Positions 42,587 to 56,819 of a stretch of 64,000 nt of DNA are shown piece after piece; the stretch's first letter is position 1, and every line of letters starts with the position of its first letter. Origin of the DNA: Pseudoalteromonas piscicida (GTDB lineage: Bacteria > Pseudomonadota > Gammaproteobacteria > Enterobacterales > Alteromonadaceae); NCBI RefSeq assembly GCF_000238315.3, contig NZ_CP011924.1, forward strand, positions 579,501-643,500, written 5' to 3'. Below the pieces are notes generated by a model. That model made no database searches. It saw nothing but the letters and a program-made list of their open reading frames with translations, and had not been told where the DNA came from. The position numbers were made by a program, and so were the translations under genes.

Positions 42587-42943
42587 TGGTGGAGCTGGGG
42601 GGATTTGAACCCCCGTCCGGAAAGCGTCGACCTTCGGTCCTACATGTTTAGTATCGTCTTTTGGTTAACCTTTAAATCTCGGACGAACACGATAAGTAAA
42701 GGCGAGGCCGCTTAGTTTTAGCCCTTCAACCCCGGCCAGGGTTTCCGTAGCGATCTTGTGTAGGGTGACACTCCAGAACCAGATCCACAAGAATATCATG
42801 GAGGAGTGCTAGCGGGCTATTATGCCGCTAGAGCGTAGTTATCGTCGTTTGCGATTACTTTAAATACGGCTTTTTTACGAGGCCAGCCGCACCTCGACAT
42901 GCACCTTAGGCTTCTTGAATCCCGTCGAATCCTAATCAGCCCC
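42587..42943 (-). ncRNA. ssrA: Transfer-messenger RNA (tmRNA)
   Basis: About 357 nt. The 5' end starts GGGGCUGAUUAGGAUUCGAC and the 3' end has GGGGGUUCAAAUCCCCCC and GCUCCACCA, the tRNA-Ala-like part. The tag frame (42852-42820) reads ANDDNYALAA then UAA, one residue different from the E. coli tag ANDENYALAA. With SmpB it rescues stalled ribosomes and marks the product for proteolysis. The 3' end is a common island integration site, but no integrase is next to it here. Confidence 0.98.
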
Positions 42944-43121
42944 TGAATAAATTCAGTACTGTTAGTGTCTATACATCTAACTATGTCTCGCATTATACAT
43001 AGGATTAATGTCATTACAATGGCTTATCATGCCATTTGCTGATGATTTAACGAAGCAGAGGCGTGTTTGACTAATTACTCACCGATTGTTGAACAAGACC
43101 GTCAGTGTTGAATATATGCGA

Positions 43122-43589
43122 CTAAGCACTTGCAAAGAATCGTCCTTTGCCACCATATTGATAGTTCTCTAAAGTATTGAGCAGCTTTTCAGAAAATTGA
43201 ATTTCTGTTTCTGAACGGCCACTCCGGCGGGCCTCTCTTAAGCTGGCTTTTTGCATGGCGATAACGTCGATTTTTTCATTCTCGGCTTGTGAAATGTCGG
43301 CAGGAGAGGGGAGTCCACTCCTCTGACTTAGACCTTGCTCAACAGCAAAATAATGTAAAGAAAGCGAAGCATGCTGCCCTAAATCCAATATTCCTTCGTC
43401 ATACAGCGCTTTGGATGCTTGAGAAAGCTCTTTCTTGGTGATGTGGGTAAAGTCGAATTGCGCTTCTTTGGTACGGCTATCTGTTGCCTCTGATGCTGGC
43501 AAAACGCTTCCCTTCGCTTCATTTTCGATTGATTGCGCGCGTCGCACCTGAGCCTGATTATATAGCATTGCTTGGTGTTGAACTTTCAT
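43122..43589 (-). CDS. Cytoplasmic protein of unknown function
   Basis: 155 residues, hydrophilic, no membrane segment or signal. Mostly helical by composition, with Gln/Glu/Ser-rich stretches (residues 10-45) and an RSGRSETEIQFSEKLLNTLENY region near the C-terminus. The family is not recognised. AAGGA lies 8 nt before the ATG, so it is probably translated. Confidence 0.6.
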   Translation of the reverse strand: MKVQHQAMLYNQAQVRRAQSIENEAKGSVLPASEATDSRTKEAQFDFTHITKKELSQASKALYDEGILDLGQHASLSLHYFAVEQGLSQRSGLPSPADISQAENEKIDVIAMQKASLREARRSGRSETEIQFSEKLLNTLENYQYGGKGRFFASA

Positions 43590-43729
43590 TTAGCAAATCC
43601 TTCTGAAATATGTATAACAACTTCAGCAAGGTTTATGTCCAAAAGAGGCTGAACAAACCTAAGATATTGGTTTGGTTTAATATTATGAGTTTAAATCTAT
43701 GTACGTAGAGGAAGCTGTTGGGCACATAG

Positions 43730-43828
43730 CCCGTAGCAGCGACTTTACGTCGCGATTTATTTTATAATTTAATGCCACAATGTTGCTGATGATGCTCTTA
43801 TCGCGGGATAAACCCGCTGCTACGGGGC
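43730..43828. repeat. Inverted pair of REP-like hairpins (BIME-like)
   Basis: Left arm CCCGTAGCAGCGACTTTACG continues to TCGCGAT and folds as GCGAC/GTCGC. The right arm, in the opposite orientation, folds as GCGGG/CCCGC and ends CTGCTACGGGG. The arms share GTAGCAGCG and CGCGAT. The rest of the 43590-44080 gap shows nothing I can assign; a 72-codon plus-strand frame from 43980 is antisense to the next gene's end. Confidence 0.7.
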
Positions 43829-44080
43829 TGGCGTGGTTATGACTTTACCTTGCGACTCTCTTAAATCAGATATCTGCTACGAATTGGACGGCCGAAGCGG
43901 TTAGCGCTTCATGGACGAATCAAGGTGCACGGCATAAAATTGGAGAGCGGTTACTCGATTACAAAAACAACTTAAAAAATTGCTCAATCATACAGACAAG
44001 GCACATTTCTTTGTATTTTATGTGTTTGTAGGGGCGATAAACGCAGCGCCAACAAACGCTGGATATGTTGCCTTTTGTGT

Positions 44081-45232
44081 TTACGCTCCGCGCAACCAGT
44101 TGCGTAGTCTATCTTTGAGTTGGCCAAGGTCGTCTTCGCAGATCAGGCCAATTTCTAGCGCTTTGGCGCGTAGTCTTTCTGAAGTTCTAATACCTTGATA
44201 GCTCACTAGTAGACCCCTTGCTTGTACGCCGCCAAATAGCTCGCTGAGTGAGTCGAGTTTATAAATCACTTGATTACCTTCCCCTTTACTGAACTTTTTG
44301 GTTTTGCATTCAATGAGGTGAAGCTTATTGTTGGCGAGCGCTACAATATCTAGCTCGTTATTGACATAGCCTTGTCCCACGCGACGTTTAATCGCAACGC
44401 CTTGAGCGACATCTTGTAAAATGGTGAGTTCTTTTTTTAGGCTGAGGAGGGTGGCGTACACATATTCTTCTAGCCAGCCACCGTTGGCAAAAAAGCGAGC
44501 GCCTTCATTAGCAAACTTTAATTTGTCGTCTTGCCTTATAGCGATGTTAGCATCTTCTAAATCGTCAATGAGTGTTTGCAAACTTGGGCTATTCATTTGG
44601 CTGCGACTCAAAGGCTCACTAATAAGTGCATTATCTTCGCTGCTGGCAGCGAGGTAATTGAGCTGGGCGAGGGCATGGCTATAATCCGTTTGACTGGTTG
44701 CCCATTTGGCGCCGAGCTGGCGATAGCGAATATCAACCACCCCCTCATTGGCAATTTCGGTGATATCGCCGTCGATGAGGTTAAAAAAGTCGCTTATCTT
44801 TAATTTATCGGCAAGAATGGTGTTGGCTCGCTCTGTTGGTACAAGCCAGTGAAGTTCGTCGCGTTCGGGTTCAATGATAAAACATTCTATTGGATAAGCG
44901 CGGATCACCTCATACATCGCAAGTAAGTGTTGGCGGTCGCCGCAACTGGCATTAAACACAAATTGAGTATCTGGTTGTTCACTAATTAGGGTATCAATGA
45001 GCTGGTGGAAGCTGTCGATTAAGGTGTCACTATCTCGGCTGGTGGGAATAAAGGCGTGATGTACTTTTACCCCTCTTGGCCCCAACACTCTTTTAATATC
45101 TTCAAGGTTTTGTTGTTGTTGAGATTCTATTAAATAGAGTATTTCATCCGAGTCGATATTGTGGTCGAGTACAGGCGTAAGCGTGTTAATAAAGTTAGTG
45201 TCGATAAAACTAAGGTGTACGTGCTTTGTCAT
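44081..45232 (-). CDS. DUF1887 (VC1899/Card1-like) CARF-domain nuclease, orphan
   Basis: 383 residues. N-terminal CARF-type Rossmann domain (about 1-135), a linking winged-helix region (about 140-245), and a C-terminal PD-(D/E)xK nuclease with Glu255/256 (GGWLEEYVYATLL), Asp295 (NNELDIVA) and Glu308-x-Lys310 (LHLIECKTKK). The usual CARF ligand loop, TGGTK-like in relatives, reads FNASCGDRQHLLAMY (residues 93-107). Relatives from type III CRISPR loci cut nucleic acid when bound to cyclic tetra-adenylate; VC1899 of Vibrio is a stand-alone member. No CRISPR array or cas gene is in this window. AGGGACAG precedes the ATG. Confidence 0.88.
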   Translation of the reverse strand: MTKHVHLSFIDTNFINTLTPVLDHNIDSDEILYLIESQQQQNLEDIKRVLGPRGVKVHHAFIPTSRDSDTLIDSFHQLIDTLISEQPDTQFVFNASCGDRQHLLAMYEVIRAYPIECFIIEPERDELHWLVPTERANTILADKLKISDFFNLIDGDITEIANEGVVDIRYRQLGAKWATSQTDYSHALAQLNYLAASSEDNALISEPLSRSQMNSPSLQTLIDDLEDANIAIRQDDKLKFANEGARFFANGGWLEEYVYATLLSLKKELTILQDVAQGVAIKRRVGQGYVNNELDIVALANNKLHLIECKTKKFSKGEGNQVIYKLDSLSELFGGVQARGLLVSYQGIRTSERLRAKALEIGLICEDDLGQLKDRLRNWLRGA

Positions 45233-45563
45233 GACTGTCCCTAAAAGTTATGTCCTTCATGAAAGATGAAATTACCCTATAAAGCGGCAAGTGTAAAACA
45301 GAGTAATACTTAGTTATGAATTTGCCGCCATTTGGCGTGAAATCCCAAAGTTTATCTAAAGTTTTGCACTGTAAAGCCGATAAATCCAAGGAAAATAATA
45401 AGTTGTCTTTTAAATGCACAGATTGATTTACATTCATTTATAATTTATAGCAGTTCAGGTGATGTTAAGCTTAACAATTTGGCGAAGTTATGCTCAAATG
45501 AGTTCGCTGCATTAAAAATAACAACATAACAATAAGATCGTGCATACTTTTCAGGGTTGATGA
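45233..45563. other. Intergenic region between divergent DUF1887 nuclease and FapA-type genes
   Basis: 331 bp, AT-rich in the half next to the FapA gene. It must hold both divergent promoters. I see no RNA gene, repeat or convincing ORF. Confidence 0.5.
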
Positions 45564-47216
45564 ATGTCATTATTTCGTTTTGATGAGGATGAGGGCTATG
45601 TCTACTTACTCTCTCATCCTGTGGAATCCGGATTTCCGGCGAGCTCGTCTCAGCTAGTTGAGATGATAGAGGGGTCGCCATATGCGGATTTTGAAATCAT
45701 TCATGCCAATATCGGCCAATTATTTACCGCAAGTGAGGCGCCCGAGCAGGACTCGCTGATTGTGGCTCGTGCCATCGATGCGTCTATTTCTGTGCGTATT
45801 GAAGAAGGCAACATGCTTGCTGAAGCGAGAGTGATCACAGCCCGTGGTGGTAAGCTGGTTTGTATGAACAAGGCCAAACAAGCGTTAAAACAAGCGGGTA
45901 TTAAAAAAGGCGTCAGTGGCAAAGCCCTCGATAACCTTCTCGGTCAGCAGTTAGAACTCCCTCCTGGACACACTTACAATGGTATTGTTGCGCATGGTCA
46001 ACGAGCCAAAGATGGCAACGACGCACGGTTTGTGCGCCTGTGTATGACAGCGCAGGACAGAGTACTCAGCCCGCAAGAATCGAGCGGCGGTAAGGTCGAT
46101 ATGCGCAATTTAGGTGCTATCATCACCGTAAAGCCGGGCAGTCCATTAATGAAAAAAGTTCCGCCAACTGAAGGCGAGCCGGGTTATACCGTGTTTGGTG
46201 ATGTGATTGATCCAAAACCAGGCAAAGATGCACCACTTGAGGTGTCAGAAGGCACCAAGCTCGACCCCAACGATAAAAACCTGCTTATTGCCGATTCAAA
46301 GGGGGTGCCTGTAGCCATTCCTCGAGGCATGCGCGTTGACGATGTGCTGTGCTATGAAAACATTGATGTGACGACAGGGCATGTCGAGTTTGATGGCAGC
46401 GTGATTGTGAGCGGTGATATTAAAGATGGAATGCGTGTTAAGGCTTCGGGCGATATTACTGTTATTGGTTTTGTGGAGTCGGCTATTCTTGAAAGTGGTA
46501 GCGCTGTTACGATAATGCTTGGCACAATTGGCCGTAAGCGCACTGAAGGTGAACCTTTTTCATGTTCAATTAAAGCAAAGCGCAGTGTTTCGTTAGGTTA
46601 TGCGCAGTACTGTCGAATTGAAAGTGAACAAGATATTCTCATTGAACGTCAAGCTTTGCATTGTGACTTGGCTTCCAAGCGTTTAATCAAAGTAGGTAAA
46701 GGTGAAACCCCCAGAGGCAAACTGATTGGCGGAAATGTATTGGATGCCATGCGTATAGAAACGGGTGAACTTGGGGCACCTTCAGGCACAAGAACACGTA
46801 TTTCACTAGCCCAAGACTGGGATAGTTTGCACGATAAGCACCGAGAATTAGTGGAGCTGGAAAAGGTGCTGGCGTCCAAAGTCATCGATATTAAACAAGC
46901 TATGAATAAAGCACAGGCGTCGCCGCAATCGCAAAAACGAGATGCATATCTTGCCAAGTTGCGGCACAGCGAAGCGCAGATAAACAAGCATTATCGCCGT
47001 AATCAGCGTAACATCGGTTTAATACAGCAAAAAATACATCGATTAGCACGCTTGAGTCGAATCACAGTCAATGAGCTAATGCACCCCGGAACTGAAGTAA
47101 AAATAGCGAAAGACACTAAGCTGTTTTCGCGAATTTACCCGCCTAATTTCGTTAAATTGCATGAAGGTAAGATCATGCAACAGTTTACGACTGCCAAAAC
47201 CGCAGAAATAGCGTAA
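45564..47216 (+). CDS. FapA/DUF342 family protein
   Basis: 550 residues. N-terminal region followed by the DUF342 beta-helix: IVVSG-like repeats GHVEFDGSVIVSGDIKDGMRV and VKASGDITVIGFVESAILESG, with GDVIDPKPGKDAPLE before it, then a coiled coil (about 425-515). The family includes FapA, described in Vibrio as a polar localisation factor for the glucose transporter, and polymer-forming-like proteins. The precise role here is not known. It forms a convergent pair with rnt. Confidence 0.82.
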   Translation: MSLFRFDEDEGYVYLLSHPVESGFPASSSQLVEMIEGSPYADFEIIHANIGQLFTASEAPEQDSLIVARAIDASISVRIEEGNMLAEARVITARGGKLVCMNKAKQALKQAGIKKGVSGKALDNLLGQQLELPPGHTYNGIVAHGQRAKDGNDARFVRLCMTAQDRVLSPQESSGGKVDMRNLGAIITVKPGSPLMKKVPPTEGEPGYTVFGDVIDPKPGKDAPLEVSEGTKLDPNDKNLLIADSKGVPVAIPRGMRVDDVLCYENIDVTTGHVEFDGSVIVSGDIKDGMRVKASGDITVIGFVESAILESGSAVTIMLGTIGRKRTEGEPFSCSIKAKRSVSLGYAQYCRIESEQDILIERQALHCDLASKRLIKVGKGETPRGKLIGGNVLDAMRIETGELGAPSGTRTRISLAQDWDSLHDKHRELVELEKVLASKVIDIKQAMNKAQASPQSQKRDAYLAKLRHSEAQINKHYRRNQRNIGLIQQKIHRLARLSRITVNELMHPGTEVKIAKDTKLFSRIYPPNFVKLHEGKIMQQFTTAKTAEIA

Positions 47217-55400: not shown

Positions 55401-56655
55401 GAGGTAAAGAGAGGCGCTCAAACGTTGCGATGCAGTCGTCGAGACTGGCAAGCGTTTTGGCATCTAAACTTTGATTACACCAGAAGTGTGCAAAGCAGTC
55501 GAGCAAGCGACCTAAGTAATAGTCAAAAACATGAGATTTCTTCAGGCTTGAATAATTTAAATGGGCGCTGCTGTAGCTACTGTTTTGCGACAAGCTCTCT
55601 GCGCAGTATAACAGCACGTTATTGGCAAAGAAGTTATTATAAGGTGCTTTGCTGTCTTGGCTTTCAAACTCAAGCTGTTGAGAGAGGGTGTCAAATAATG
55701 CGGCATCATGGCTATTGGCTTGCTGCAATAACGCCAACTTATGAAACAAACCCAGTGTTCTACCTAGGTACTGCTTTTTACGTTTGGTGATTTTGTCTTT
55801 GGCTTTTAGTGCTTGTTCAAAACAAACGATAAGGTCGTCGTGTTGTTGTAAAAAAGCAATGCTTGCCATAATTTGTGCACTATAAGCGGTTTGGATATTG
55901 GCCACCAACGCCTGAGCCTTATCCAATTGCAAGGTATAGATTTGATATTCTGCTAATAAACAGGTCAGTAGCGGGCTTTGTGTCTTGGCTTGAACCTGTG
56001 TGAGTATTTCAAGTGCATAGCTAATGCTGTGACCACCTTGTAGTAAGGTATATAGCAAGGTTGCAAAAGCTTGATATTGTAAGTCATCAGCAAGCGCCGA
56101 AAATCCTTCAACTGTAAAAGGATAAAAATACAGTGGTAATAGCACTTGATTGGTCTTATGGCACACCGCCTGTGGGTCTTTCGCCAGTCCTAAATGATTG
56201 CGGGCTTGTGGTAGTTGATTGATAAATAAAAAGTCTCGAATGAGTCGCTGTTCATCGGCAAATTGGCGTTCCCATTCATAAGCATTCAGTACAGGGATAA
56301 ACTCTTCTGCGATGTTAAGGATTGCTAAAAACTGGCCATCAGCCATGACTCGATGGCTTAAACTGGTCGCGAGTTTTAGATTTATTTGCACTCCATCTTC
56401 GTTAAAAGTCACTAACCCGTCTGAGCGCCACTTCATAATTTGGCTATGACTCACACCTTGTTCAAAGTCATTTTCGGGGATGATCTCTTTTGCCACGAGC
56501 GCTTGAACTAGGCGTTTGAGTTTGATTGCTGAAACTGGTTTATAGACGACCGCCAGCACACTCAACAGCGTTTGCTCATGCACAGGTAGGTTATGCACTT
56601 GATTGATTAGGGCTGTGATTTCTTCGTTCATTGCTGGTGGAAAGTCAAAATTCAT
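52450..56655 (-). CDS. SNF2-family ATP-dependent helicase/translocase
   Basis: 1,401 residues. The C-terminal 460 carry the SNF2 motor: DDMGLGKT with Lys965 (motif I), LVIAPTSVCFNW (Ia), DEAQALKNP (II), TTGTPIENNLTELW (III), and QASDRAHRMGQTRPV (VI) with GTIEEQIVELH. The first 930 residues are helical and of no family I recognise; they hold a likely SNF2-N-type region at about 520-900 (ELVINQEPCPIALKLRW). These enzymes move on double-stranded DNA or displace bound proteins. The stop codon overlaps the MITE by one base. A pair of direct repeats lies just upstream of the start. Confidence 0.92.
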   Translation of the reverse strand: MNFDFPPAMNEEITALINQVHNLPVHEQTLLSVLAVVYKPVSAIKLKRLVQALVAKEIIPENDFEQGVSHSQIMKWRSDGLVTFNEDGVQINLKLATSLSHRVMADGQFLAILNIAEEFIPVLNAYEWERQFADEQRLIRDFLFINQLPQARNHLGLAKDPQAVCHKTNQVLLPLYFYPFTVEGFSALADDLQYQAFATLLYTLLQGGHSISYALEILTQVQAKTQSPLLTCLLAEYQIYTLQLDKAQALVANIQTAYSAQIMASIAFLQQHDDLIVCFEQALKAKDKITKRKKQYLGRTLGLFHKLALLQQANSHDAALFDTLSQQLEFESQDSKAPYNNFFANNVLLYCAESLSQNSSYSSAHLNYSSLKKSHVFDYYLGRLLDCFAHFWCNQSLDAKTLASLDDCIATFERLSLPLFAGLAKQLMLAMHGEQYPLAFNPKLNVSHLVAKKTAWDLALDKLIALNPNANTNQEVDEQFRLIWQIRQGRFDIEFLAREQKRGKTGWGKGKPISCKQLKQHPEQFSYISQSDKKLIDAIAPQSGYGYNGRADYALAGIPALKAAVGATNLYHEEDLKQAITIAEKSPELHIRQHGDDLLLSIPNLPSYFGQPQTYSFIQQAEHHYEFIVFNQSHIQVAEIIGESGLTVPASAKQKVLSSIKAIAPYLNVQSDLADIDTGLDSIEAQSALVINIQPYHQGLDFHCVVMPFGEKGPIFHPGHGIATVSAEIDGKRLSTTRNLLLEQQRLDELDTHCPLFLEMTDNRLSLAEVDAALEVLQELELVINQEPCPIALKLRWPKGKKVKLSSKLESQHLQLAMSKKNEWFDMTGELQVSNDQVIELKQLLKMVATSNGRFIALDGEQVLALSSDLKAQLDQLNNATEGGKFHPLAAPLIAEATTGMRMKTLPAWEEQNEKMQQAVGLTPTLPSTLQAELRDYQQAGFDWAMRLAHWGAGACLADDMGLGKTIQALAMILARANVGPTLVIAPTSVCFNWQQEIQKFAPTLSVKLFSDYPHSDARAEMLSNLQPLDCVILSYGLLQREVDILKPIAFETIVADEAQALKNPLAKRTQAACALKGKFKLITTGTPIENNLTELWSLFRFVNPGLLGNLKRFSEKFSAPIENANEDKLAAHRARKGLKHLIQPFILRRMKHQVLTELPPRTEINVPIQLSQEEQTFYEALRQNAIDEISQSTQQDSANEQRFKMLAALTRLRQACCHPKLLMAESQITSSKLAALDELLTELQENNHKALIFSQFVGHLQLIKARLEKRGIRFQYLDGSTPSKARQQAVNAFQKGEGEVFLISLKAGGSGLNLTAADYVIHMDPWWNPAVEEQASDRAHRMGQTRPVTIYRLIAKGTIEEQIVELHHHKKDLADQLLANTDKVMKLDVNDVLSMLKETL

Positions 56656-56681
56656 CGTTTGGTTGTAGTATTCAATTTAAG

Positions 56682-56819
56682 ACACTGAAAACTACCATAA
56701 TTTAGTCTGAACTGCCATGAAGATAAACAAAGTCAAAGTTCATTCTTCGGTTATGGTGGTTCATTCAATACACTGAAAACTAGTACTATTTAGTCTGAAC
56801 TGCCATGAAGATAAGCAAC
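56682..56819. repeat. Imperfect direct repeat, about 49 bp, upstream of the helicase gene
   Basis: The 49-bp stretch at 56682-56730 recurs at 56771-56819 with a few mismatches, sharing ACACTGAAAACTA and TTTAGTCTGAACTGCCATGA. It lies between sdaC and the helicase gene, both on the minus strand, so it may duplicate a promoter or binding site. Confidence 0.85.

Follow-up and report, generated by a model that had tools for sequence, protein, structure and literature searches.

A CARF nuclease of the VC1899 type in Pseudoalteromonas piscicida, from a branch maintained mostly without CRISPR

CARF domains are chiefly known for receiving the alarm signals of type III CRISPR (clustered regularly interspaced short palindromic repeats) systems. 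Within a 64,000-nucleotide stretch of the Pseudoalteromonas piscicida genome (assembly GCF_000238315.3, contig NZ_CP011924.1, positions 579,501 to 643,500 of the forward strand; hereafter the window), a gene on the minus strand (44081..45232) encodes an orphan CARF-PD-(D/E)xK nuclease of 383 amino acids (aa), of the VC1899 type (DUF1887/Card1-like). We found that the branch of relatives to which it belongs is maintained, mostly without CRISPR, and is near-universal in Vibrionaceae, which speaks against a published suggestion of decay. We put at roughly 60% the probability that the window gene encodes a CRISPR-independent sensor-nuclease acting as a single-gene system within the VC1899 branch of the Can2/Card1 (DUF1887) family, with a pocket re-tooled to a ligand other than cyclic tetra-adenylate (cA4). 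A first-pass annotation of the window had singled the gene out as a candidate undescribed system. Its doubt about cA4 was well founded, but the protein belongs to a known family, and the stronger result is the branch-wide maintenance outside the window rather than the window gene as an undescribed system.

The nuclease model PF09002 (DUF1887/Card1-like) matches the window protein at 123.9 bits (cut-off 26.4), both domains lie within a single chain, and the fold match spans the full length. The CARF domain occupies about residues 1-150 (44783..45232, minus strand), as delimited by model secondary structure and by matches to CARF chains over about residues 1-135, and holds the ligand loop NASCGDRQHLL (residues 94-104; 44921..44953, minus strand). 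The catalytic stretch E255, E293, D295, E308, C309 and K310 (44303..44470, minus strand) was located by residue identity among relatives; E255, E293, D295, E308 and K310 are all present. Sequence, Pfam and fold matches thus agree with the earlier description of an orphan CARF nuclease with intact catalytic residues and an altered loop. To judge from its sequence, the window protein is a real, intact member of the known DUF1887 family, and nuclease activity is predicted. The closest relatives are in Pseudoalteromonas flavipulchra (99% identical) and two further species of the genus (98% and 97%), followed by P. piscicida 36Y (87%) and P. phenolica (61%). VC1899 of Vibrio cholerae (PDB 1XMX) is the founding DUF1887 member and of the same type, while the similarity to Card1 (6WXW, 6XL1) is confined to the nuclease half (residues 246-345 by phmmer) and the window locus, unlike that of Card1, is without cas genes.

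The pocket is changed in the branch. The cA4 contacts of Can2 that are common to Can1 are Ser19, Thr42, Lys99 and Tyr118, among which Ser19, Lys99 and Tyr118 touch phosphates (PMC7969007; this and the other papers cited by PMC number were available as excerpts). In 21 relatives with a GG-x-K loop, columns 11, 100 and 119 are Ser, Lys and Tyr without exception. Among 52 branch members, column 11 is Asp in 34, Gly in 12, Glu in 3 and Asn in 3, column 100 is Arg in 46, His in 4 and Lys in 2, and column 119 is mostly Val or Ile (V26, I14, C4, M3, L2, T2). Column 121 changes from His (16 of the GG-x-K set) to Glu (43) or Asp (9). Column 36, the equivalent of Thr42, does not clearly separate the two sets, as branch members differ there (T17, E12, D5 and others); L050, L015, L016, L120 and L077 were excluded from both sets. 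The window protein has D11, E36, R100, I119 and E121; the Ser, Lys and Tyr contacts of Can2 (Sulfobacillus 7BDV, Thermoanaerobacter 8Q3Z) and Cdn1 (9U49) are therefore Asp, Arg and Ile here, in keeping with the earlier suggestion of another ligand. Those proteins bind cA4 according to their PDB titles and are associated with type III systems (PMC7969007, PMC12825302), whereas none was found for the window protein. With D11, E36 and E121 all acidic, a highly anionic ligand would be less likely, unless assisted by metal ions.

The altered loop was thought to set the window protein apart from known members. It does not, since VC1899, named in the same annotation, reads SCGLRH at the place where the window protein reads SCGDRQ, and 51 of 78 family members have an xGxR/H loop (23 have GG-x-K and 4 others); a loop unique to the window protein is ruled out. 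The expectation that the loop type defines a clade held. The 78 rows remained after 173 proteins were clustered at 72% identity (an alignment, A1, comprises 56 of 121 collected proteins), and in their tree, built with the loop columns omitted, the three loop groups need 6 changes. The branch there has a support of 97 in the Shimodaira-Hasegawa-like approximate likelihood ratio test (SH-aLRT) and comprises 50 xGxR/H rows, one GG-K-like row (P0038) and two with other loops (L120, P0049). When 10 long-branched or odd rows were removed, the loop-free tree of 68 rows split cleanly into 50 and 18 with support 100/100, so the xGxR/H loop marks one branch; L077 (loop ASGGTR) is on the 18-row side, grouped with the GG-x-K rows. 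Branch members include the window protein, the Vibrionaceae proteins and proteins of Thalassotalea ponticola (P0023), Shewanella gelidii (P0059), Paraglaciecola (P0044) and Salinimonas (P0030), and VC1899, which is not a tree row, was placed there by sequence match and loop. A third loop form, SYHK lacking the glycine, occurs beside carAB in two gammaproteobacterial metagenome-assembled genomes (L015:3061-4182, L016:2983-4140), the second also near a CusABC-like efflux cluster, with no cas gene among the tested neighbours of either. Thaumasiovibrio occultus has a second branch paralogue of 473 aa with loop SCGPRH on its second chromosome (L014:7713-9134 / L113). A relative with the intermediate loop ASGGTR (L127:7796-8956) adjoins an EF-G-like gene, and no cas gene was recognised near it.

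By profile search the branch gene is present in 147 of 150 Vibrionaceae genomes, the family label of this set being inferred via records shared with Thaumasiovibrio and Grimontia; among the three genomes without a match, two are of only 2.1 and 2.6 Mb and one is of 94% completeness. All 52 branch members examined, and 46 of 46 Vibrionaceae sequences (from 45 genomes, G055 contributing two), agree in the six catalytic-site residues. In these 46 sequences D11, D13, R16 and R100 are invariant, the loop at 94-102 is NASCGLRHR in 43, and residues 94-104 rank first in conservation among the 134 CARF blocks of that length; blocks 9-16 and 119-129 are unremarkable, with 13 of 137 and 38 of 134 blocks equally conserved. 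The nine CARF pocket positions of PMC7969007 show higher conservation than nine CARF columns drawn at random (p=0.008 by sampling), with the exception of columns 12 and 36 (ranks 81 and 106 of 144). The ratio of nonsynonymous to synonymous substitution rates (dN/dS) of the window gene against three close relatives is 0.046, 0.056 and 0.073, which points to purifying selection. For comparison, the values are 0.045, 0.034 and 0.034 for FapA, 0.062, 0.068 and 0.031 for RNase T, 0.087-0.109 for a 157-aa lipoprotein-like gene and 0.011-0.017 for MotY. Vibrionaceae pairs of the branch gene give 0.021-0.036, which are rough because dS exceeds 2; the comparisons of the window gene with L124, L122 and L123 (whole gene) and one Vibrionaceae pair were saturated and gave no ratio.

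These data bear directly on VC1899, which as a purified protein was a weak RNase, not regulated by cA4 and without plasmid nicking, and was proposed to be a degenerate enzyme "cast adrift" from CRISPR (PMC7969007). An earlier paper had judged its site likely able to accept cA4, untested there (PMC6981274). A degenerate former type III effector would account for the weak activity in vitro and for the loss of the cA4-contact residues, but we regard it as improbable, because it is at odds with the low dN/dS, the identical catalytic residues, a loop block more conserved than any other in the CARF domain and the near-universal presence in Vibrionaceae. This view of VC1899 as a leftover was the sole functional reading found in the literature searched. 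No report on the core status or function of the branch was found in the part of the open-licence literature that was searched, nor any match for the searched terms in a 2025 CRISPR classification (PMC12669027).

The linkage with CRISPR was examined in this genome and across the family. In the window genome (5.49 Mb, 2 contigs) no profile match was found for cas1 or RAMPs (PF03787), and no Cas10 above the cut-off, in line with the earlier supposition that type III CRISPR is missing; two Cas10-palm matches, both below the cut-off, lie in frames with GGEEF/GGDEF motifs read by eye and are ruled out as Cas10. A repeat scan of the 64-kb window likewise found no short-spaced array, as had been noted before; the rest of the genome lay outside that scan. 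PF22335 counts in the order (197 of 394 over the cut-off) were not taken to represent Cas10, since many are likely GGDEF proteins, and the RAMP profile served as the type III marker. Among the 16 GG-x-K loci for which loop and flanks were both inspected, cas genes lie in the stretch in 15, many of these assignments resting on clustering with a Pfam-tested representative rather than on a gene-by-gene test. Cas10 or RAMP genes occur at 13 of them (L007/G051, L050, L051, L061, L062, L128, L129, L131, L133, L134, L136, L137 and L138), L132 has Cas1/Cas2 only, L135 has Cas6 only, and no cas gene was recognised at L130. Three further stretches, L139, L140 and L141, were set aside for their weak or fused matches.

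The RAMP search covered 80 of 186 listed carrier genomes. Seventy-four of them carry the branch gene: 57 Vibrionaceae, 12 Pseudoalteromonas, and G182, G366, G384, G065 and G133. The loop was read in 42 of the 57 Vibrionaceae (39 NASCGLRHRL, none GG-x-K with Lys), with the remaining 15 placed by profile score, and in all 12 Pseudoalteromonas and all five other carriers. RAMPs were found in 5 of the 57 Vibrionaceae, each time on a contig other than that of the branch gene (mostly draft assemblies), in none of the 12 Pseudoalteromonas, and adjoining the branch gene in one carrier only, Neiella (G133). Most carriers tested are thus without a type III source, which agrees with a ligand other than cA4. 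A cyclic nucleotide could also come from a CBASS- (cyclic oligonucleotide-based antiphage signalling system) or Panoptes-like system encoded elsewhere in the genome, with the window protein as its effector. A CARF pocket is expected to bind some nucleotide, and GGDEF-type proteins are present (motifs read by eye); however, the single CD-NTase profile tried (SMODS, PF18144) had no match in the window genome, and no synthase was recognised among the annotated neighbours of branch genes except the Cas10 of Neiella. We consider such an effector very improbable.

A re-tooled CRISPR-independent sensor-nuclease remains the better reading, given the changed pocket and a genome in which no type III source was found. 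By homology, and as the Can2 structures suggest, the protein would form a dimer in which two CARF domains share one interface pocket, and a ligand bound there may bring both PD-(D/E)xK domains onto nucleic acid, with RNA the probable main substrate. The pocket is conserved but changed, so a conserved ligand other than cA4 is suggested, and the branch has been kept mostly without CRISPR, so it probably senses some other cell signal. The ligand may be a product of the cell's own machinery or of stress, for example a nucleotide or an RNA end. An analogy is offered by RtcR, whose CARF domain acts outside CRISPR and reads RNA ends, namely tRNA halves with 2',3'-cyclic phosphate, rather than a cyclic oligoadenylate (PMC7790460). 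RtcR differs in being a transcription regulator with AAA+ and helix-turn-helix domains, and serves as an analogy for the possible ligand, not as evidence. We judge the chances about even that members of the VC1899 branch are core CRISPR-independent CARF signalling enzymes in Vibrionaceae and scattered marine Gammaproteobacteria, with a widespread, native and undescribed ligand that is not a cyclic oligoadenylate. A near-universal CARF nuclease in a family mostly without type III implies a second signal, perhaps of a general stress pathway, and the purification of a single protein could reveal it.

Several observations weigh against this reading. The activity of VC1899 in vitro is weak, and its report covers cA4 and, in the excerpts available, no other ring sizes (PMC7969007). 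The window protein has T12, N13, N16, E36 and D99 where VC1899 has Q, D, R, D and L, and because the pockets are not identical the cA4 result carries over only by inference; the window gene also differs in being patchy in its genus and in having different neighbours. The best match has an internal stop in 2 of the 147 Vibrionaceae (G543, G511) and is truncated in one (G562). No conserved operon partner or synthase was found in the loci examined. The only neighbours that recur widely in Vibrionaceae are a convergent udp-family gene, beside the branch gene or one gene away (L110) in 14 of 20 primary-copy loci, and a metal-ATPase-like gene on its far side; one representative of the udp-family genes matched uridine phosphorylase when tested. 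Only 12 of 108 Pseudoalteromonas genomes have the gene at full length (a thirteenth match, of 37 bits, is partial), and it occupies at least three different sites there, more like an accessory gene. Finally, the Neiella litorisoli member (loop STGSHH, 38% identical) stands beside Cas6, RAMPs and Cas10 (L049:6269-18069; same genome as L013), so a link to oligoadenylate may persist in part of the branch. This locus, together with the five Vibrionaceae that have RAMPs elsewhere, would fit a cyclic oligoadenylate as the ligand still, supplied by a type III system that mobile elements bring or that this strain has lost. We find that quite improbable in view of the changed pocket residues, the 12 Pseudoalteromonas carriers without RAMPs and the separate contigs in the five Vibrionaceae. 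Moreover, one branch carrier in Vibrionaceae (G578) has at its type III locus a separate, second CARF nuclease whose loop differs (L120, VTQGNIGLQ).

The patchy presence in Pseudoalteromonas, with differing sites and gene content, indicates an accessory gene at a variable spot. It adjoins fapA in 9 of the 12 carriers; in G452 and G453 it is flanked by phytase-like and ybaK-like genes, and in G022 it is in another region and its product, with loop SNGSRY, falls in a different sub-branch. In the window, one edge of the site is the divergent FapA-like gene (45564..47216, plus strand; Pfam FapA), a family with a match in 106 of 107 Pseudoalteromonas genomes, in some only as a paralogue of about 36% identity, and the other is the transfer-messenger RNA gene ssrA (42587..42943, minus strand; ARAGORN, and Rfam RF00023 at 229.7 bits). 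The interval from ssrA to fapA (42587-45564) varies across the genus: near-empty, with fapA and ssrA within about 600 bp and no CARF gene between them (G460, G497, G491), or with the CARF gene, a four-gene block (G451), or both (strain 36Y).

Such a site, and the kinship with type III effectors, would suit a stand-alone anti-phage gene, in which the CARF pocket would bind a nucleotide or RNA fragment made or induced by phage, and the nuclease would destroy RNA or DNA in response. We think this unlikely. Presence in 147 of 150 Vibrionaceae and the frequent proximity to udp are unlike typical defence genes; the branch gene had no match in the phage collection or in viral contigs, and a single weak one (21.6% identity) in plasmids; and the four-gene block of strain 36Y had no PADLOC match, two of its genes resembling Mur ligase and ATP-grasp enzymes. 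For the sensor-nuclease, a role in stress response or housekeeping seems more likely than dedicated phage defence.

Between ssrA and the CARF gene lies an open reading frame of 155 aa (43122..43589, minus strand) without Pfam, PADLOC or NCBIfam match. Its dN/dS of 0.24-0.39 is higher than that of the CARF gene, and it is unlikely to be a partner. Integrases usually use the 3' end of ssrA; the CARF gene is on the 5' side, and carriage in an ssrA-integrated island is not supported. In both G182 and G022 (P. translucida), a 120-aa protein family with no Pfam match is encoded close to the CARF gene (L052:5325-5687, L055:7289-7651). Elsewhere in the window, two adjacent 88-bp direct repeats, 81% alike, occur at 56641-56816.
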